Positions 4,966 through 61,429 of a DNA stretch of 64,000 bases are shown piece after piece. Source of the stretch: Cyanobium sp. Tous-M-B4 (GTDB taxonomy: Bacteria > Cyanobacteriota > Cyanobacteriia > PCC-6307 > Cyanobiaceae); NCBI RefSeq assembly GCF_024345395.1, contig NZ_JAGQBA010000004.1, forward strand, positions 248,001 to 312,000, given 5' to 3'. Position numbers and translations under genes: made by a program. Under the pieces are notes generated by a model. That model searched no databases. It was given only the letters and a program-made list of their open reading frames with translations, and was not told where the DNA came from. Within the stretch, counting starts at the first letter, position 1; each line of letters begins with the position of its first letter.

Positions 4966-5574
4966 TTGTCTTCCACGCCCCGCAGCAGCACACCCAGCCT
5001 GCTCGAAACCCTGCGCCGCCAGGTGGTGCCAGTGCTGGCCTGGGTGTTGCTGGCCCTGGTGCTGCGCTGGGCGGTGCTGGAGCCCCGCTGGATTCCCTCG
5101 GGATCGATGCTCCCGGCCCTGCAACTGCAGGATCGGGTGCTGGTGGAGAAGCTGCGCGCCCGGCTGCATCTCCCCGTACCGATCGGCACCGTGGTGGTAT
5201 TCCATCCCCCCACAGCCCTGGTAGCCGCTGGCTACGACCCCAAGGCAGCCCTGATCAAGCGGGTGGTGGCACAAGCGGGCGATGAAGTGGAGGTGCGCGA
5301 TGGAGTGCTTTGGCGCAACGGCATCAAGGCGGCGATCGATTGGTCAGCCGAACCGATGGACTACCAGCTGGAACCCCTCACGGTGCCCCCAGAGCATCTG
5401 CTGGTTTTGGGAGACAACCGCAATGCCAGCTTGGATTCCCACCTCTGGGGGCCCCTGCCTCAAAGGGCCTTGATCGGTACAGCGGTGCTTCGCTACTGGC
5501 CCCTCGATCGGTTCGGCTGGTTACGGATCTCCGCCATGGGCCACCCCCCTGGTAAGACGAATGAGCTGGGGTAG
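4966..5574 (+). CDS. lepB: Signal peptidase I
   Basis: The 202-residue protein is a type I signal peptidase, which removes signal peptides from exported proteins at the membrane. Seen: one N-terminal membrane helix (about residues 18-38), the box with nucleophile WIPSGSMLP (Ser47), the general-base region ALIKRVVAQAGDEV (Lys98), and the C-terminal box GDNRNASLDSHLWGPL. It is transcribed divergently from menD with only a few tens of bases between the starts. Confidence 0.95.
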   Translation: MSSTPRSSTPSLLETLRRQVVPVLAWVLLALVLRWAVLEPRWIPSGSMLPALQLQDRVLVEKLRARLHLPVPIGTVVVFHPPTALVAAGYDPKAALIKRVVAQAGDEVEVRDGVLWRNGIKAAIDWSAEPMDYQLEPLTVPPEHLLVLGDNRNASLDSHLWGPLPQRALIGTAVLRYWPLDRFGWLRISAMGHPPGKTNELG

Positions 5575-5586
5575 GGTGCAAAGCGG

Positions 5587-5964
5587 ATGCAGCGCACGCC
5601 GGCGATGTTCAACCCGGAGTTCCTGACCACCGATAACGAAGCGATCAGCGGTAACTCGTTGATTCAGTACCTGCAGGAGCAATCTCCTGATGTGCTGCAA
5701 AGGGTTGCTCGCTCAGCCAGTAGCGACATCCAAGACATCATTCGCCACAACGTCCAAGGGCTGTTGGGAATGCTTCCCGGAGAGCAGTTCGAGGTCAAGA
5801 TTCAGACCAACCGAGAAAACCTGGCTGGCCTGCTGGCTTCAGCGATGATGACCGGTTACTTCCTGCGCCAGATGGAACAGCGCATGGAACTGGACACGAG
5901 CCTGTTGGGCTGCGGAGATCTGGACAGCGACCTCGATGCCGACCCAGGCGAGCTCAGGCTCTGA
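5587..5964 (+). CDS. DUF760 family protein
   Basis: The 125-residue protein belongs to DUF760, a small family conserved in cyanobacteria and plastids. Seen: the core NSLIQYLQEQSPDVLQRVA, DIQDIIRHNVQGLLGMLP and the helix MMTGYFLRQMEQRMEL. It has no signal peptide and is probably cytosolic. Plastid relatives have been linked to protein turnover in plants; no function can be read from this sequence. It follows lepB by twelve bases. The gene could start at ATG 5587 or the second ATG at 5605 (MFNPEFLTT). Confidence 0.9.
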   Translation: MQRTPAMFNPEFLTTDNEAISGNSLIQYLQEQSPDVLQRVARSASSDIQDIIRHNVQGLLGMLPGEQFEVKIQTNRENLAGLLASAMMTGYFLRQMEQRMELDTSLLGCGDLDSDLDADPGELRL

Positions 5965-5980
5965 GTTAGCTCAAACTCAG
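5961..5980. terminator. Inverted repeat between convergent genes
   Basis: A perfect 7-bp stem, CTGAGTT / AACTCAG, with a six-base loop spans the DUF760 stop and the 12-base gap before the end of the DUF4336 gene. There is no T-run on either side, so it is at best a weak bidirectional terminator. Confidence 0.3.
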
Positions 5981-7200
5981 TAATCGCTTAGTCCGGAATC
6001 CCCTAGTCCAGGCTCCGCGGGCTGCTCCGGCACCACTCCAAGGCGCAGGAGGGTTTTGTCAATGCCGCTCAGGTAAGCCCAGCTGCCCCTATCTGGTGCC
6101 CAATCTCGCCCTTCCAGGCAGTCTGCAAGCTCCCCTAGTTGCTGAGGGCTGCATGCCACCGGAGCTTCGTAATGGGCCGGCACCAGCCAGCGGATCTCGG
6201 CTTGGCCAGCCAAAGTGCGGATCCAAGTCACCAGGGCGGCCCGGCAGCGGGGAAACACCAGCCGCTCCAAGACAGGCGCCACCAGCAGTGCAGCCTCAGG
6301 GCCGGGCACCAGCCGCCGAAATTCAGCCTGCCAACCCTCTTGCCAGCGGAAGGGATAGAGGCCGAAATAGGCCCGCGGCGAGCGCACCCCCGCGGCCAGC
6401 AGGCCGGAAAGCAGCTCCCTGATTCCAGGCACCTGCAGATGGTCTGGGCGGAGATAGGAGGCAAACAACACCAGTCGCTGCCAGCCCCGCCTGCGGCAAT
6501 CAGGAGTGTCGAGCAGGGGCGCATCACCGCGATCCCTGGCATGGAAAAGCAGCGGCGTCGGATCGGCATCAAATAGTTCTGGGGGCTGCTCACTGATGGC
6601 CACTAGGGCATCGGTGAGCAGCAGGCAGCCGCTAGCGCGGTGCAGGCAGGCCGCCTCCATGAAGGTGCCCAGGCCTAGATCTAGGGGACCGAGCGGTAGC
6701 CAGTGCAGCTCATCGGCATGGGGAAGCCCCTGCTCAAACAGCACCCGGGTGCGCTGGGCCGGGAACCCCAGCCAGGCCAGCGGCAGCGGCAAGGGAAAGC
6801 TCCACTGCCGTGGTGTCACCCACACCTGGGCAGCAGGGAACGCCCTTGCCATCGCCGGCACCGGCAGCTTGTGCTCGAGGCCAGAGCTGGTAGGCAGCAC
6901 GATCGTGCAAACGGCGCCGTAGCGGTGTTCCAGCTCGGCAAGAGCTGCCCGCACCTCTCCAGTGGGGGGCACGGGGGCATAGAGCAACAGACCAGCCCGC
7001 AAACGCACCACCGTCATCCGGATCGGCACTGCCACGTAAAACACCCCCTGGAGCTGCTCGAAACTCCAGACCTGGCCAGGGATCAATTCGCGCACCAAGG
7101 TGCGGCGGCGACCGTAGGGGTAGAGCGGCAAAAGCGGCCACCAGGGCCAGCTCTGATCTGCGCCAGGCGCCGCTGAATCTCTGCTGGGGAACTGGGTCAC
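5977..7200 (-). CDS. DUF4336 family protein
   Basis: A protein of about 407 residues matching DUF4336, a cyanobacterial and plant family of unknown function that I believe resembles metallo-beta-lactamase folds. Seen: WPLLPLYPYGRRRTLVREL near the N-terminus, the pair PTSSGLEHKLPVPA, and LLLTDALVAISE. I chose the GTG at 7200 because it sits one base past the stop of the ZIP gene. An in-frame ATG at 7227 would overlap that gene. It is last in a DUF697-ZIP-DUF4336 run. Confidence 0.8.
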   Translation of the reverse strand: MTQFPSRDSAAPGADQSWPWWPLLPLYPYGRRRTLVRELIPGQVWSFEQLQGVFYVAVPIRMTVVRLRAGLLLYAPVPPTGEVRAALAELEHRYGAVCTIVLPTSSGLEHKLPVPAMARAFPAAQVWVTPRQWSFPLPLPLAWLGFPAQRTRVLFEQGLPHADELHWLPLGPLDLGLGTFMEAACLHRASGCLLLTDALVAISEQPPELFDADPTPLLFHARDRGDAPLLDTPDCRRRGWQRLVLFASYLRPDHLQVPGIRELLSGLLAAGVRSPRAYFGLYPFRWQEGWQAEFRRLVPGPEAALLVAPVLERLVFPRCRAALVTWIRTLAGQAEIRWLVPAHYEAPVACSPQQLGELADCLEGRDWAPDRGSWAYLSGIDKTLLRLGVVPEQPAEPGLGDSGLSDY

Positions 7201-54748: not shown

Positions 54749-55200
54749 ACTCTTCTAGCCACAAACATTTCAAGGCAGCCGATTGCCCAGCTCTTACCGT
54801 CCTCTACGACGGGGGTTGCCCCCTGTGCCTGCGGGAGGTGGAGCTATTGGGCCGCAAAGACAGGCAGCGCCACGGGGAGCAGCTGAAACTCGCTTTCGTG
54901 GACATCGATCAGGCCGACTACAACCCAGATAGCTACTCCGGCATCAGCTACAGAGAAGCTATGGGGCGCATCCACGCAATTGATGCCAGTGGTGCAGTGC
55001 TGCGAGACGTCGAGGTGTTTAGACGGGCCTACGACCTAATCGGCTTGGGCTGGCTTTATGCACCAACTCAGTGGCCCCTGCTCCGCCCCTTGACAAACCT
55101 TGCCTACGGCATTTGGGCAGATATGAGGCTGCGGATCACTGGACGACCAAGCTTGGAAAGCCTCTGCCAAGAGCGCAATGGCTCATGTCGTATAGACTAA
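54745..55200 (+). CDS. DCC-family (DUF393) thiol-disulfide protein
   Basis: A 151-residue protein with the DCC signature LYDGGCPLCLREVELL, a thioredoxin-like CxxC (CPLC). Later segments MGRIHAIDASGAVLRDVEVF and LLRPLTNLAYGIWADMRL fit DUF393. The start is GTG 54745 in the previous gene's stop. Confidence 0.86.
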   Translation: MNSSSHKHFKAADCPALTVLYDGGCPLCLREVELLGRKDRQRHGEQLKLAFVDIDQADYNPDSYSGISYREAMGRIHAIDASGAVLRDVEVFRRAYDLIGLGWLYAPTQWPLLRPLTNLAYGIWADMRLRITGRPSLESLCQERNGSCRID

Positions 55201-55202
55201 TG

Positions 55203-55241
55203 AGTCGTGGACCAAGCAGAGTATCTGCTCACTCAACGACT
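55203..55241. terminator. Symmetric two-tier hairpin between convergent genes
   Basis: AGTCGT (55203-55208) pairs with ACGACT (55236-55241) around an inner stem GCAGA (55216-55220) / TCTGC (55224-55228), with seven bases unpaired on each side. No T-run; it may end transcription from either side or be a base of the acquired segment. Confidence 0.35.
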
Positions 55242-55246
55242 AACAA

Positions 55247-57001
55247 CTAAAAAGGATTTAGCAAAAAGCGAAGCAAACGATCCCTAAACCGCAAAGGTGG
55301 TGGATCTAACTCAACTGCAATAGCAGAACTGCGCAGTCGCAAACTCTCGAGATAGCTCATCGCATCCCCTAAGGACATAGGAGGCGCGAAAAGGAATCCC
55401 TGAGCAAGACGAAAACCTCGGTCTATCAACCAAGTCCTCTGACGCTGGGTCTCAACCCCTTCAGCGGTGGTACTCAGACCAAGATCATCAGCCAAAGCCC
55501 CCATAGTTGATACAAGCTTATTACTTGGCCTCACTGGGTCGTCAAGAAGTTGCACAAAACTCAGGTCAATCTTAAATCCATTTATGGGCATACTTGTTAA
55601 CCGGGACAAGGAGGAGTAACCAGTACCAAAGTCGTCAATAGTAATACGAATTTGGCGCTCGGATAAATGGCGAAGGAATTCATCAAATCCCGAGGTGGCA
55701 TCCTGCAGAGACTCCTCTAAAATCTCAGCTTGCAAATACCATCCCATCGGGAGCTGATGATCGTCGATCAACTGCAAAAACCGACGGCGCATCAACAAAT
55801 CATCAAGCAGATTAGCTGATAAGTTAACGCTTAGCACCATGGAGCGCCATGGCACAACACGAGAGAGAGTTCCCACATGCTCCAGAGCTTTTTCAATTAT
55901 TTGCAAATCAAGCTCGGCTGTTAGTCCAACCGAGCGAGCGACAGGAACGAATACAGAGGGAGATACAAAGTTGCCATCAGCTCTGGGCCAACGTGCTAAA
56001 ACCTCAAAACCCATTGGTTCACAAGAGTTGAGATCAACAATCGGCTGGAAAAAAGGGATCATTTCCTTTTGCTGAATAGCTAAGCGCACATCAGCCTCGA
56101 GGGCATAACTTTCACGCGCTAGACGTCTCGTCTCTAGATCAAAGAAACGATATTGGCTATGAATATGTCGACTGGCAATACGCAAAGCCATATTTGCGTC
56201 GGCGAGCATATCCTCAGGATCAGAATATGAACCCTGCTGCAGGGTGATGCCAATGGCTACAGACAACGGAACGCGATGCTCAGCAATCCTAAAGGGTTCA
56301 ACGAAAAGGTCAATTATGCGCGTGACGATTGGAACAACAGAATTTTCATCACTTAGATCAGATATCAGGAAAATGAACTGCGAATCAGAAAAGCGAGCAA
56401 GATAAGCCGTCTTAGGCACAGCATTAATTAAGCGACGCGCCGCCTCATTCACTAAGGCCTCCGCGGGTCGGCCTCCTAGGGTGGCGCTAATACTCCCATA
56501 GCCCTTGAGCTGGCAACGTACTAAAGCGAAAGGAGGGTGCAACTCAAGCTCCAATAAGCGATCGAGTTGACGCAACAATTGACCTCTACTAATGAGAAGA
56601 TCAAGAGCCCGTTGCTCTTCCGATGATTGCGGTTTGGCTAGAGCTGGAGCTAAATCAGCCTCAATGATTGAAACAGTTTGAGTAGCTAGCCATAGCATTG
56701 CTGCATGACTGCGGGGATCTAGGGTACGAGAGGCGCTATCGTAAAGGCATAGTGAACCAAGAGCAAAGCCTGTCCGACTAATTAAGGGAAAGCGTGCATA
56801 AAAATTTACAGGCTTATCACTATCTGGCATCAAAAGAGAATCGAGTCGTGAATCACGAGCCGTTCCATCAATCACCAAAACTTCGCTGGATGGCAGAGGT
56901 TGGCTAGCAAGAAGAACCCGTGCCGCTTCTGAGCCAGTGATGGCCTCAGCGAGGTCACAAACAACATCGAAGCGATCAGAAGCCTGGTATTTACTACTCA
57001 T
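55247..57001 (-). CDS. GAF-degenerate GGDEF-EAL cyclic-di-GMP phosphodiesterase
   Basis: A 584-residue cytosolic protein. Residues about 1-125 look like a GAF sensor domain. Residues about 150-295 form a GGDEF domain whose signature reads RFSDSQF (205-209 SDSQF), so cyclase activity is not expected. Residues about 300-560 form an EAL domain with the catalytic residues kept: FEVLARW (Glu333), VNLSANLL, EILEES, DDFGTGYSSL (456-465), FKIDLSFVQ and TTAEGVETQRQ. It is expected to hydrolyse cyclic-di-GMP. Its ATG overlaps the cyclase gene's stop by four bases. The DNA is AT-rich. Confidence 0.88.
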   Translation of the reverse strand: MSSKYQASDRFDVVCDLAEAITGSEAARVLLASQPLPSSEVLVIDGTARDSRLDSLLMPDSDKPVNFYARFPLISRTGFALGSLCLYDSASRTLDPRSHAAMLWLATQTVSIIEADLAPALAKPQSSEEQRALDLLISRGQLLRQLDRLLELELHPPFALVRCQLKGYGSISATLGGRPAEALVNEAARRLINAVPKTAYLARFSDSQFIFLISDLSDENSVVPIVTRIIDLFVEPFRIAEHRVPLSVAIGITLQQGSYSDPEDMLADANMALRIASRHIHSQYRFFDLETRRLARESYALEADVRLAIQQKEMIPFFQPIVDLNSCEPMGFEVLARWPRADGNFVSPSVFVPVARSVGLTAELDLQIIEKALEHVGTLSRVVPWRSMVLSVNLSANLLDDLLMRRRFLQLIDDHQLPMGWYLQAEILEESLQDATSGFDEFLRHLSERQIRITIDDFGTGYSSLSRLTSMPINGFKIDLSFVQLLDDPVRPSNKLVSTMGALADDLGLSTTAEGVETQRQRTWLIDRGFRLAQGFLFAPPMSLGDAMSYLESLRLRSSAIAVELDPPPLRFRDRLLRFLLNPF

Positions 57002-58302
57002 GAATCTGATTCTGAACCTGGCTCAAAATGGTGGCTAAAGGAGTCGGCCCATGCTTTGCCTGGCGACCATGGATCATATAATACGTTGTCTTGTACTGAT
57101 GATGAGCTGCATACCCTATTGCGCCCCATTTCCTTGGCGCGATAAAGAGCAGCATCAGCCTGAGCATATAAGTGGTTCAAATTATACCCAAAATGCTCTG
57201 AGCCAACCACACCAATACTTACTGTCAACTTGATCTGTCTACCTTGCCATTGGATCAATTGCTGTTCAACAGCCACTCGCAATCTATCCATCATTATCAA
57301 GCCATGAGCAGAAGAACATTGAGCAATAACAAAAAATTCTTCGCCACCCAAGCGTGCCAACAAATCATCATTTCCATACAGAGATTTTCTCAAGATTGCC
57401 GCAGCCTCCTGAAGCGCGAAATCACCACACTGATGTCCATAGGCATCATTTATTGCTTTAAAATTATCCAAATCGAGAATGCCCAAAACATAGGGAACTT
57501 GATCTGCTTCTCCATGGGACAAAAGGCGCATGCCCATATCCATGCATGCACGACGATTCAACAATCCGGTGAGATTATCAATATCAATAAATCTACGCAA
57601 TACTGGGGTAAGACGAGAATACAGGGCAAGAGCCAATACAAAAAAAACCAATCCTAAAAACACAAAGCTAAACAAAGCAATTAATAATAAGTCTGTTGCA
57701 AATCCAGAAGAGGTAATTGACGGGTCAAAGTTTATTACGACCAAATGATTATCTTGTCGCAAGCCCCGATCGTTAAGAATAAATTTTACAGGCAACGCTA
57801 GGGTAAAACTACCGGCGAATGGTAGGTAAAAGCCAATATAGTTTTTGAAACAGATGGCAGAGTTTGAAGTATTTTCAATAAAACAATTACGGATCGCTCG
57901 AAACTGAGAATCGTCAGATTCAGATCTTGCCAGCATTGGATCTGCAATTAAAAGACGGTTCCAGGCAGGTCGACTACTCTTTACAATACGTCCTTCGGAA
58001 TCAAGTACTAAAATATAGTTGATTCCCTCCTTGAGATCGTCGTTGTGCTGAAGTCTGTACCGAGACAATAAGGCAGCGTCTCCAGAGAACGAAGGCTTAT
58101 CAAGACGCAAAAAGGTAGATACAATAGATCTTATCTCGTAAGCATGGCTGATCACCTCTCTGTTTGACTCAAGCAGGAGATGAGATGCCAAACCTGCTGA
58201 CATTAAAAGCGATGATGCAACTCCAACCCGCAAGAAAACAAAAAAAGCGCGAGATTTTATGCTCGAAAGAAAATTAGAGGCCGGAAGAAGTTCGCCGATC
58301 AC
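56998..58302 (-). CDS. Membrane-bound GGDEF diguanylate cyclase
   Basis: A 434-residue protein with two membrane helices (about residues 20-43 and 203-228) flanking an extracytoplasmic domain of about 155 residues, followed by a GGDEF domain. The active-site sequence is RLGGEEFF (319-323 GGEEF), with LTGLLNRRA and ILDLDNFKAIND upstream. The RxxD inhibitory site is not visible. It should make cyclic-di-GMP in response to an unknown periplasmic or membrane signal. It starts two bases after the sensor gene's stop. Confidence 0.9.
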   Translation of the reverse strand: MIGELLPASNFLSSIKSRAFFVFLRVGVASSLLMSAGLASHLLLESNREVISHAYEIRSIVSTFLRLDKPSFSGDAALLSRYRLQHNDDLKEGINYILVLDSEGRIVKSSRPAWNRLLIADPMLARSESDDSQFRAIRNCFIENTSNSAICFKNYIGFYLPFAGSFTLALPVKFILNDRGLRQDNHLVVINFDPSITSSGFATDLLLIALFSFVFLGLVFFVLALALYSRLTPVLRRFIDIDNLTGLLNRRACMDMGMRLLSHGEADQVPYVLGILDLDNFKAINDAYGHQCGDFALQEAAAILRKSLYGNDDLLARLGGEEFFVIAQCSSAHGLIMMDRLRVAVEQQLIQWQGRQIKLTVSIGVVGSEHFGYNLNHLYAQADAALYRAKEMGRNRVCSSSSVQDNVLYDPWSPGKAWADSFSHHFEPGSESDS

Positions 58303-58304
58303 TG

Positions 58305-59741
58305 TTAAATTTCCGCGGTATCCGATAAATCTTGTTCGCTTGCAATGAGGGTTAGCGCTTCAAGTTCTGCCTTAACCTGAGCCAATAAACCATTTTCAAC
58401 TTTTAAGAATTTCTCAAGGTCAAGTTGGTTTAAATTTATATCATTGTCGCAAAACTGCATATCTTGCATCATTGACAAGGCATGATTGACTTGCTGAGAT
58501 GCATTATCAAGAGGTGTTTTTAGTGAAGCTAATCTATCAACAGCAGCTTGTCCAAGCGTTCTAATATTCGTGATATCGACCTGATTGCCAACATAGAAAT
58601 CAGGCTTACCAGGCTTTCCACCGAATGGATAAATTGTTAATCTATTCCAGAATCGTTCACCATTTAATCTATAGTTTACTAACTCACATGTAAAAGAACG
58701 GCCTTCTTGAATAGCCCTGGCAATCTCAGCAGTGGTATTGGGGTCTGTGTCTGGTCCACGCAGAAACCTGCAGTTGAAACCAGCCGCTTTATCCTTAGGA
58801 TAGCCTGTTATTTTAGAGAAGGCTTCGTTAACGTAGATCAAAGGATAATCATCTCGTCTCATGTCAGCAATAGAAACTCCAAAAGTTGCATTCTCTACAA
58901 CAGAACCAAGAAGTGATAGCTCTTGGACTTGTTGGCGCAACTTATCAGACAAGCCAACCTCTCTTTGACTACCTTCTTTAAGTCGTAGGTTATTAACTGA
59001 AAGCATTTTATTTTGCCGCTGAAAGGTTGCCGCTGCTCCAACAGAAACAACCCCAAGCAAGGCTACATAGCCAACTAAATATCCAATCTGGCCGAATCCA
59101 TCAACTTGAATGCCACGCACAGTTACCTCCTGAATGCCACGAACGTCACCAACCTTCCAATCTCGCTTGGGTGAATCAGGATGCTGATTGTGGCAAGTTA
59201 CACAGGCTGGCCTCATAAATACTGGCGTAGCAAGTCTATATGTAGCAGATCCAAAAAGTGGGCGCTCAAGACTAACTATACGAGGCTGGTTAGGATCCTT
59301 GCGTAGGCTCTGTAAAGCCATTTCTTCGAAACTATCAAGTGGTGGGACATCTCTCTTCGCAAACGGATAGTCAGACAGAAAAGCGTAATTTATACGACCA
59401 TCACTATGGGCACTATCAAACAATGCCCCCAATTCAATGGACAATGTTGCAGGTATTGGAATGCCCCCATGGACTTCACGGTAATTTTCAGTAAATACAG
59501 CTTGGCCGTCAGCTTGTTGCAAGCGTGCAACTACATTATCGGCATAGTAACTGCGAATACCAGTAGCCAAAGTGGAAATCTCATCGGCTTGCAGCTCCAT
59601 CTGTTTTACAGTCGCCGAAGCAAGACTGTTAACCATCACAAAAGGAAGGCCGACAAGGCTAAGAATTAGCAACACCAAAACGAAGCCTGGCCTGCCAACA
59701 AACCTTATCAGTTTTGATAACAACCTAGACGGCCAGCTCAT
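58305..59741 (-). CDS. Membrane sensor: Tll0287-like haem domain plus LOV domain
   Basis: A 478-residue protein. A membrane helix (about 19-40) leads into an extracytoplasmic domain with the DUF3365/Tll0287-like haem motif CVTCH (Cys180, Cys183, His184), then a second helix (about 220-240), a short coiled region (241-275), and a PAS domain of the LOV type. The LOV flavin motif GFNCRFLRG is present with Cys324. The last 85 residues are helical and match no output domain I know. Expected ligands are c-type haem outside and flavin inside. The partner may be the adjacent cyclase. First gene of the operon. Confidence 0.85.
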   Translation of the reverse strand: MSWPSRLLSKLIRFVGRPGFVLVLLILSLVGLPFVMVNSLASATVKQMELQADEISTLATGIRSYYADNVVARLQQADGQAVFTENYREVHGGIPIPATLSIELGALFDSAHSDGRINYAFLSDYPFAKRDVPPLDSFEEMALQSLRKDPNQPRIVSLERPLFGSATYRLATPVFMRPACVTCHNQHPDSPKRDWKVGDVRGIQEVTVRGIQVDGFGQIGYLVGYVALLGVVSVGAAATFQRQNKMLSVNNLRLKEGSQREVGLSDKLRQQVQELSLLGSVVENATFGVSIADMRRDDYPLIYVNEAFSKITGYPKDKAAGFNCRFLRGPDTDPNTTAEIARAIQEGRSFTCELVNYRLNGERFWNRLTIYPFGGKPGKPDFYVGNQVDITNIRTLGQAAVDRLASLKTPLDNASQQVNHALSMMQDMQFCDNDINLNQLDLEKFLKVENGLLAQVKAELEALTLIASEQDLSDTAEI

Positions 59742-59902
59742 CGCACTGCCATTGCTGATCTGTTCCTTGCCTTGACGGTGCCTAAATCCTAGTTGGGGGA
59801 GGGGATAATCGCATCCCTCGGCAAGGGGGCAGCCTCCATATCAACGGTCTCAGGAGGGGAGGGACCACCGCTGCTGGAAAACATCGGTTCGCATGCGTGC
59901 CT

Positions 59903-61429
59903 TCAGCCCGGCAGATCCAAGCTGAGCTGCCCAGAGGTTTCTTTGCTCAGCCTTCTGCGGCTAGAGCGCAGACCGGAACGCCGTGAACCGTGGCGCTGCT
60001 GGATCTCATCAGCAGTAGCCGCAAAGCCATGCTGCTGCCGTAGGGCCCAGACTCGATCGCGTGCGACTGCAGCCGCATTATTCCAATCGATCAGCGGCAG
60101 CGGATAGGAGCGACCGATCTCGATGCCAAGCCGGGCCTGGGTGCGGCCATCCATGGTCCAGGGAGTGTGCAGGTACACCGGCGGAACAGCCGCCAGCTCG
60201 GGCAGCCAGCGGCGGATGAAGACCCCTTCAGGATCGTGGTCTAGACCCTGCTTTAGCGGGTTATATATTCGGATTGTATTGATGCCGGTGGTGCCAGATT
60301 GCATTTGACACTGGCTCCAGTGGATACCAGGTTCATAGTCGACGAATTGACGAGCGAGATGTACGCCGCTCTCCCGCCATGGAATCCACAGCTGATAGCT
60401 GGCTACGGAAAGCAGCATCGCCCGCATACGGAAATTCAGCCAACCGGTTGCGTTCAGAGAGCGCATGCAAGCATCCACAAAAGGAAGGCCCGTGCGCCCC
60501 TCTGCCCAGGCTGCCAAACGCTCCTGATTACTTTCACGCAGTCCAGCAGTGAGGGGATGGAGCTCGCTGTATTCGAGGCTTGGCTGACATTCCAACTTCT
60601 GGATAAAATGGCAATGCCAGTGCAAGCGTTCATCAAAGCGCTGCAGGGAGCGCCGCCAGGGGACTACCGCGAGAGCTTGGCGTCGCAGGCGGCTTTTTTG
60701 CACTACCTCCCGCATCGACAAGCTGCCCCAACTGAGATGGGGCGAAAGGCGCGAGCAGCTGACGTCTGCCGTATTGGGACTAGACAACCCAGCTTGGTAG
60801 GAGCGGCTGCGCTGATCCAAGAAGGAAGCGAGGGTTGTCAAGCCTTGGGATCGCCCCCCCTTTTGCCGCCCAGGGCAGGAATCGGGCTCAAGTCCTAGCT
60901 CTGCCGCCATGGGCAAGTGACCGGGGTCGAGCCGGGGCAGCGGGGTGAGACGGGGTGGCGCGGCGCTTAGCTCCTCGGCCATGCGCTGCTCCCAGCGCTT
61001 TGCCCAACCCGTTCGCTTGCTGAGCCTCCGGGTGACGCCAAATTGCGGAATCTCCTGCCATTTAATGCCGTGCAGGCGGGCCCATTCGGCAACGCGCCGG
61101 TCGCGGGCGTAGGTCCAGCCGTTGCCAGTTTCCTCGTGACTCCACAAGCCAGCTACTCCAAACTGGCGATGGGCCCGATCCAGCACCTGCTCAATCGCAC
61201 CGATGCGCACCACGAGTGGTTGGCCAAGACCGGCAAGGACCTCTCGCAGCTCTACAAGGCATTCGCGGCAAAACTCCCACTGCCTGGCGGAGCTGTCTGG
61301 CTCGCTCCACAGGTCTGGCTCCACCACGTAGAGCGGCAGGACTGGTCCCCGCAGCGACGCCTCCAACAAGGGCCTGTGATCGAAGCTGCGTAGATCGCGC
61401 TTGAACCAAACGATTTGCAGCGGCCCCAT
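59903..61429 (-). CDS. Photolyase/cryptochrome family protein
   Basis: A 508-residue FAD flavoprotein. The N-terminal antenna domain (IVWFKRDLRSFDHRPLLEA) and the FAD-binding domain (LSPHLSWGSLSMREV, GRTGLPFVDACMRSLNATGW, NFRMRAMLLSV, GIHWSQCQMQSGTTGINTIR) are intact. It may repair cyclobutane dimers with light or act as a photoreceptor; sequence alone does not decide. A gap of about 160 bases separates it from the LOV sensor gene. Confidence 0.9.
   Translation of the reverse strand: MGPLQIVWFKRDLRSFDHRPLLEASLRGPVLPLYVVEPDLWSEPDSSARQWEFCRECLVELREVLAGLGQPLVVRIGAIEQVLDRAHRQFGVAGLWSHEETGNGWTYARDRRVAEWARLHGIKWQEIPQFGVTRRLSKRTGWAKRWEQRMAEELSAAPPRLTPLPRLDPGHLPMAAELGLEPDSCPGRQKGGRSQGLTTLASFLDQRSRSYQAGLSSPNTADVSCSRLSPHLSWGSLSMREVVQKSRLRRQALAVVPWRRSLQRFDERLHWHCHFIQKLECQPSLEYSELHPLTAGLRESNQERLAAWAEGRTGLPFVDACMRSLNATGWLNFRMRAMLLSVASYQLWIPWRESGVHLARQFVDYEPGIHWSQCQMQSGTTGINTIRIYNPLKQGLDHDPEGVFIRRWLPELAAVPPVYLHTPWTMDGRTQARLGIEIGRSYPLPLIDWNNAAAVARDRVWALRQQHGFAATADEIQQRHGSRRSGLRSSRRRLSKETSGQLSLDLPG

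Follow-up and report, generated by a model that had tools for sequence, protein, structure and literature searches.

How could a predicted membrane sensor with two input domains and no recognised output domain bear on cyclic di-GMP (c-di-GMP)? This question is raised by a locus of Cyanobium sp. Tous-M-B4 that lies in the window (here, the whole stretch of 64,000 nucleotides that was analysed) and in which the genes for such a sensor, a diguanylate cyclase (DGC) and a GGDEF-EAL phosphodiesterase follow one another. In many known c-di-GMP enzymes, the sensor is part of the enzyme's own polypeptide. The features concerned are:

58305..59741, minus strand: sensor gene, 478 aa (ORF list, sequence, Pfam/NCBIfam)
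56998..58302, minus strand: diguanylate cyclase gene, 434 aa, GTG start (ORF list, Pfam)
55247..57001, minus strand: GGDEF-EAL phosphodiesterase gene, 584 aa (ORF list, Pfam)
59742..59902, minus strand: upstream gap of 161 bases from the photolyase stop to the sensor start, presumed promoter site of the operon
55179..59954, no strand: stretch absent from the relatives G126 and G045 (locus alignment)

All three genes lie on the minus strand in the transcription order sensor, DGC, GGDEF-EAL, with gaps of +2 and then -4 bases (a 4-base overlap), and the three-gene operon that the sequence-only reading had placed at 55247-59741 is correct to the base according to both ORFs and sequence. A scan for the sigma-70 consensus gave no match on the sensor's strand in the 161-base gap upstream of the sensor. 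The further claim that synthesis, breakdown and a two-domain sensor are encoded together is borne out by the Pfam domains and by the intact catalytic motifs of both enzymes.

The sensor was searched for at E <= 1e-40 in 400 sampled genomes of the window's family (the sample being drawn from a larger group and including many genomes of an earlier 151-genome sample), which gave 18 copies in 15 of the 400 genomes, from 4 of 59 genera; L050 and L051, with contigs as long as those of L010 and L011, duplicate these and were counted once. The search of the 151 genomes at E <= 1e-20 additionally gave G127 and G144, both with the haem half only. All 18 neighbourhoods were read, and both enzymes lie downstream in the same order and on the same strand in 15 of them, including L054, the cyclase frame of which is short at the N-terminus. 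The exceptions are L055 (sensor and cyclase) and L056 (sensor only), each stopping at a contig edge, and L031, in which the gene after sensor and cyclase is convergent and encodes a different kind of GGDEF-EAL protein. Wherever the contig reaches far enough, the cyclase adjoins the sensor (17/17 copies). The three-gene arrangement is thus not a matter of chance, as its order is conserved among relatives. Measured in 14 triads, that of the window among them, the intergenic gaps range from -31 to +13 bases (start codons chosen by the analyst), and the three proteins are encoded by separate ORFs throughout.

Alignments covered 16 of the 18 cyclases (without L054, for its short N-terminus, and L056, for its contig end) and 15 of 18 EAL proteins, whereas distances were compared over 14 triads. 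Protein distances are correlated between sensor and cyclase (r = 0.93), sensor and EAL protein (0.86), and cyclase and EAL protein (0.94; Mantel p 0.0001), a pattern that does not separate co-evolution from shared descent, since shared descent alone would give it. G150 and G214 harbor two complete triads each, which belong to different clades; each triad groups with the same neighbours whichever of the three proteins the tree is built from, so that it moves as one unit. Agreement is incomplete at one point: in the EAL tree G150b and G285 are the neighbours of the window's clade, which lies nearer G140 in the sensor and cyclase trees.

From N- to C-terminus, the sensor is laid out as a transmembrane (TM) helix, a periplasmic c-haem Cache domain, a second TM helix, a cytosolic LOV domain and an 86-aa tail. 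Its predicted hydrophobic segments (residues 11-45 and 216-241) flank the Tll0287-like domain and hence predict an extracytoplasmic placement; Pfam assigns the Tll0287-like domain (PF11845) with 69.2 bits (cut-off 24.1) and PAS_9 with 58.9 bits (cut-off 27). No output domain (enzyme, kinase or methyl-accepting) was recognised in the sensor with Pfam and NCBIfam, and no HNOB (H-NOX) match was listed by Pfam at E up to 1. Structure prediction of the sensor (three sequences) reached a pLDDT of 37.8, too poor for a fold search. By a modest degree, we lean towards a three-protein c-di-GMP switch, in which an output-less haem/LOV membrane sensor steers the co-made cyclase and phosphodiesterase in trans. 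Such a sensor would span the membrane, exposing its c-type haem domain to the periplasm and its LOV photoreceptor to the cytosol, and, as it has no recognised output domain, would most likely pass its signal by contact with the two co-made enzymes.

The PAS domain of the sensor is a LOV domain by its best PDB matches, which comprise histidine kinases, two of them unnamed and the next activated by blue light, as well as LOV proteins and phototropins. It carries the motif GFNCRFL, with NCRFLR at residues 323-328, and the residues N323, C324, R325, N356, N366 and Q387 are identical in the alignment of all 18 copies; we take C324 to be the adduct cysteine and the Asn/Asn/Gln positions to be flavin contacts. 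When the window genome was searched with this domain (E <= 1e-6), the sensor itself was the sole match. The blue-light input domain that had been proposed for the sensor is therefore present as a light domain by sequence, with a canonical LOV motif, and it probably acts as a blue-light flavin photoreceptor, presumably loaded with flavin.

On the periplasmic side, the haem motif CVTCH occupies residues 180-184; CxxCH is present in 18/18 copies, and the only Tll0287-like match in the window genome is the sensor domain. A 2026 preprint, as far as drawn on here, renames the DUF3365/Tll0287 family sCache_heme and describes redox-type behaviour for a stand-alone member with His/Cys ligation, Tll0287 itself being a redox-type c-haem protein, and slow NO release with no stable oxygen complex for a membrane signalling member lacking the axial Cys, a result from one signalling-type protein tested, from Pseudomonas (PMC12889525). 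In 17/18 copies, the window's included, the cysteines of the haem domain are limited to the CxxCH pair (G297 has three); among the histidines considered for the sixth haem ligand, H187 is kept in 18/18 copies, and H91 and H112 are not found in all 18. The redox-type Tll0287 form with His/Cys haem ligation is excluded for the window sensor, because CVTCH provides the only cysteines of the domain and the axial third Cys is absent. By the rule of the preprint, a sensor without axial Cys would have an NO-type haem domain (PMC12889525). The haem-domain profile matched only Tll0287 in the PDB (5b82, E 0.82), too weakly for a residue-level comparison of axial ligands, so that the argument on haem type rests on the Cys count.

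The sequence-only reading had described a light/redox sensor; its light half stands with the intact LOV motif, while redox is doubtful for a haem domain without a third Cys. The haem input is thus probably a gas (NO) and not redox, and the module would be better labelled "light and probably NO". That the haem instead reports the redox state and the LOV domain light, both steering the two enzymes, appears unlikely to us. Tll0287 itself and the stand-alone haem domains among the relatives scanned (L013, L015 and, in a cyanobacterium, L019), which fall into the redox-like class of the preprint, would fit such a role, but the third Cys for His/Cys ligation is missing from nearly all sensor copies and the signalling-type relative described there behaved as an NO sensor (PMC12889525). 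It further speaks against a redox haem that 7 of the 8 larger haem-domain relatives scanned (>480 aa; the eighth is L064) carry a class III nucleotide cyclase on the same chain. Of these seven, two belong to the window's family and five to different cyanobacterial families, and in all seven an HNOBA match lies between haem domain and cyclase (over the cut-off in 5/7).

The DGC consists of a TM helix, a periplasmic region, a second TM helix and a GGDEF domain (two hydrophobic segments; GGDEF with 129.9 bits in Pfam). The active site GGEEF is kept in all 16 cyclases aligned, and by this GG[DE]EF motif the protein is predicted to be an active cyclase. The I-site RxxD, which we assume to be the site of product inhibition, is kept in 13/16 cyclases and lost in the window (GNDD) and in the Cyanobium copies G158 and G214a. 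With Pfam, nothing besides GGDEF was found below E 0.01 in the 16 cyclases, one CHASE4 match standing at 0.19. The structure model of the DGC is weak (55.6), and nothing was matched by Foldseek at E <= 0.001; with VIA-align, most matches of the weak model were periplasmic domains of sensor kinases and chemoreceptors (span about 20-220, Z up to 10.7), which may hint at a periplasmic fold that we call Cache-like, presumably the fitting name for the class matched. Having its own periplasmic part, the cyclase may have its own signal. Cys 140 and Cys 151, located before the second TM helix, are invariant in 16/16 cyclases and offer an alternative redox site, if redox matters; a phosphodiesterase under disulfide control is known in PdeC (PMC8846402).

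The GGDEF-EAL protein is matched by EAL with 184.1 bits and more weakly by GGDEF with 56.9 bits, the latter domain being degenerate (SDSQF), and has no hydrophobic segment. Its EAL catalytic set (E, N, E, DD, K, E, Q; positions as we assign them) is complete and identical in 15/15 phosphodiesterases, which suggests an active phosphodiesterase. A GAF domain was matched in 11/15 phosphodiesterases (Pfam, E up to 1), with none at the N-terminus of the window protein; four relatives were rescanned, and only G158 gave a match, weak and below the cut-off, so that GAF is missing or weak in G158, G214a, G150a and G189 as well. The invariant Cys pair in the periplasmic part of the cyclase, Cache-like at low confidence, and the GAF domains of most phosphodiesterases would suit three proteins that are co-expressed but functionally separate, with the cyclase responding through its periplasmic part and Cys pair, the phosphodiesterase through GAF in the copies that have one, and the sensor addressing another partner. 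We regard this as rather improbable, because the cyclase adjoins the sensor in every copy with enough contig and the window phosphodiesterase lacks a GAF match.

In the three-protein switch, the haem would most likely respond to a gas (NO) and the flavin to blue light. According to the parts of PMC8846402 used here, H-NOX proteins act on separate cyclases, with NO inhibiting the cyclase or tipping SwDGC towards phosphodiesterase activity; blue light activates the LOV-GGDEF-EAL protein SL2; and PapB, whose only domain is BLUF, controls the EAL protein PapA by way of its C-terminal helices (PMC8846402). Since cyclases are inhibited when H-NOX binds NO, and phosphodiesterases are activated when LOV or BLUF senses blue light, either input is predicted by analogy to lower c-di-GMP, with the cyclase off and the phosphodiesterase on. 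The C-terminal tail of the sensor would be a candidate contact with the phosphodiesterase, as it spans 77-97 aa in 15 triads and 20 aa in L031, the one copy without this kind of downstream EAL gene; the tail-EAL link is a candidate resting on this single contrast, with the contig-edge copies L055 and L056 having tails of 81 aa and 51 aa, respectively. The sequences themselves establish gene structure, domain content, intact motifs, accessory status and the conservation of the triad, whereas its cofactor loading, NO as ligand, trans-action, response direction and physiological output are parts of this proposal that we infer. A tentative and more specific form of it, which we hold to be possible, is a two-input gate in which a periplasmic NO-binding c-haem and a LOV domain would switch the cyclase off and the phosphodiesterase on, with the tail plugging into the phosphodiesterase.

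That sensors without an output domain act in trans is already established for PapB-PapA and for H-NOX with SwDGC, Dgc1 or Lpg1057 (PMC8846402). PapB-PapA of Rhodopseudomonas palustris would resemble the proposed switch in joining an output-less flavin blue-light sensor, which exerts its control in trans, to an EAL protein; by its genes, the triad has a sensor without matched output domain co-encoded with an EAL protein. PapB differs, however, in being a short, single-domain BLUF and not a LOV protein, and in the text of PMC8846402 used here no dedicated cyclase is described for it. The H-NOX systems similarly combine a separate haem sensor with a c-di-GMP enzyme partner, but through an HNOB fold and with no light domain, whereas the haem of the triad is c-type and periplasmic. 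In SL2 of Synechococcus elongatus, LOV is tied to EAL activity in a cyanobacterium, though in one protein without a haem domain, while the triad is split over three proteins. The E. coli dgcO-pdeO operon also co-encodes cyclase and phosphodiesterase, the products of which form a complex under haem control, yet each enzyme has its own haem sensor and light input is lacking (all PMC8846402). As in the sCache_heme family, a periplasmic CxxCH Cache domain that lacks the axial Cys is part of a signalling protein of the membrane, but in the triad a LOV domain follows, and "LOV" has 0 occurrences in the main text of the preprint (PMC12889525). In the literature searched, no description of this architecture (haem Cache and LOV sensor with cyclase and EAL partners) and no paper pairing DUF3365 with LOV was found.

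The same combination is narrowly distributed. A search of 388 genomes of the class (E <= 1e-40) gave 22 matches in 20 genomes of other families, each to the haem or the LOV half and none to both (with up to four candidates per genome scored), and 386 genomes of the phylum (E <= 1e-30) gave four other-family matches, of which only G479 spans both halves. Considered as a fused or wider ancestor, G479 was rejected: it has a haem domain and a PAS domain without NCRFL, its match is interrupted by one stop, and within 12 kb neither the cyclase nor the EAL protein has a relative. Among the sampled genomes, a haem-Cache and a LOV domain on one chain occur only in the window's family. When six short peptide patterns were run against a collection of 84,980 species genomes, two Cyanobium genomes were the only ones to yield the sensor in full length, which says little on absence because none of the known carriers outside Cyanobium was listed.

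Within the genus, the sensor is present in 3/16 genomes (5 of the 16 being under 90% complete). The matching locus was read in 7 of the 13 non-carriers, none of which has the triad (in L087, the sequence stops 2.5 kb beyond the DCC1-like gene); in the nearest of them, G126 and G045, with flanking proteins 86-98% identical, the DCC1-like gene adjoins the photolyase gene with about 150 unaligned bases between. The Cyanobium genomes L010 and L011 carry the triad in the same neighbourhood, between a pyridoxamine-oxidase-like gene (a label from sequence) and the DCC1-like gene, where an extra 547-aa ORF (amine-oxidase-like in L010) adjoins it and no photolyase match was found in the stretch. The G+C content of the triad is 42-48% versus 60% in the window, and in 1-kb blocks taken at steps of 500, each of the nine lowest values falls in a block that overlaps the triad. 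A search for mobile-element ends at 55150-60000 revealed no long flanking direct repeat, the longest being 21 bases at 76% with both copies within genes. The triad is an accessory cassette at one chromosomal place, for which gain here and loss in relatives are both possible. Its low G+C content and patchy occurrence in the genus, together with the unmatched GAF and lost RxxD of the window copy, might suggest decaying or silent foreign DNA, which is nevertheless very unlikely, given that none of the three frames is interrupted, the active-site residues checked are intact, and the I-site loss and the missing or weak GAF are shared with the relatives named above, so that the losses date back some time and the frames have nevertheless stayed open.

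The three-protein switch acting in trans is the reading we modestly favour for the cassette. With 18 GGDEF matches in the window genome, the triad is one c-di-GMP module among many. Attachment or motility, which the sequence-only reading had proposed as output, would be a candidate, and possible targets of the messenger in this genome comprise one MshEN match (23.2 bits versus a cut-off of 23.1) and four PilZ matches, three of them over the cut-off. The locus brings a light domain and a periplasmic haem domain together in one conserved, output-less protein, beside one enzyme of each sign, which makes signal integration in trans directly testable and could give a two-input optogenetic part. The window genome and G126/G045 form a natural with/without contrast for effects of light and NO on c-di-GMP. 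If true, the two-input gate would represent a new receptor architecture, held as an accessory cassette in one cyanobacterial family.

The triad (55247-59741) has a G+C content of 42-48%, as against 60%, and forms the lowest-G+C part of the window; in two close relatives (G126 and G045), no triad lies between the matching flanking genes, a DCC1-like gene and a photolyase gene. Two Cyanobium loci with the triad, L010 and L011, carry an additional open reading frame of 547 amino acids, which separates the triad from the DCC1-like gene:

L010, 12607-14250: 547-amino-acid frame
L011, 12580-14223: 547-amino-acid frame

The L010 frame is amine-oxidase-like, and a mere 46 bases occupy the corresponding place in the window.

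The periplasmic part of the cyclase (window 56998-58302) contains two cysteines that are invariant in 16/16 copies, and this pair may possibly act as a disulfide switch. At L054 (G203:C23), an N-terminally short cyclase frame (5844-7060) is found about 200 bases from the stop of the sensor, which could reflect a frameshift, another start, or an assembly error.

Relatives of the haem domain also occur in other architectures. Fusion proteins that combine a Tll0287-like haem domain and an HNOBA-like segment with a guanylate/adenylate cyclase of class III are present in other cyanobacteria (L062, L063, L065, L101, and L104, also L032 and L033) and are candidate periplasmic NO-responsive cyclases. 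Furthermore, L064 (G479) encodes a haem-Cache and PAS protein (5467-6933) with no recognised output, in which the NCRFL motif was not found; relatives of the triad's enzymes were absent within 12 kb, and one TAG stop was counted within the genome match.

Some genomes carry several copies of the sensor module, which come from different clades: three in G150 (C45, C12, and C20) and two in G214 (C41 and C68). The G150:C20 locus (L031, 8050-10559) comprises sensor and cyclase only, the phosphodiesterase being missing, and its sensor stops shortly past the LOV domain with a 20-amino-acid tail. This short-tailed pair represents a natural test for the role of the sensor tail.
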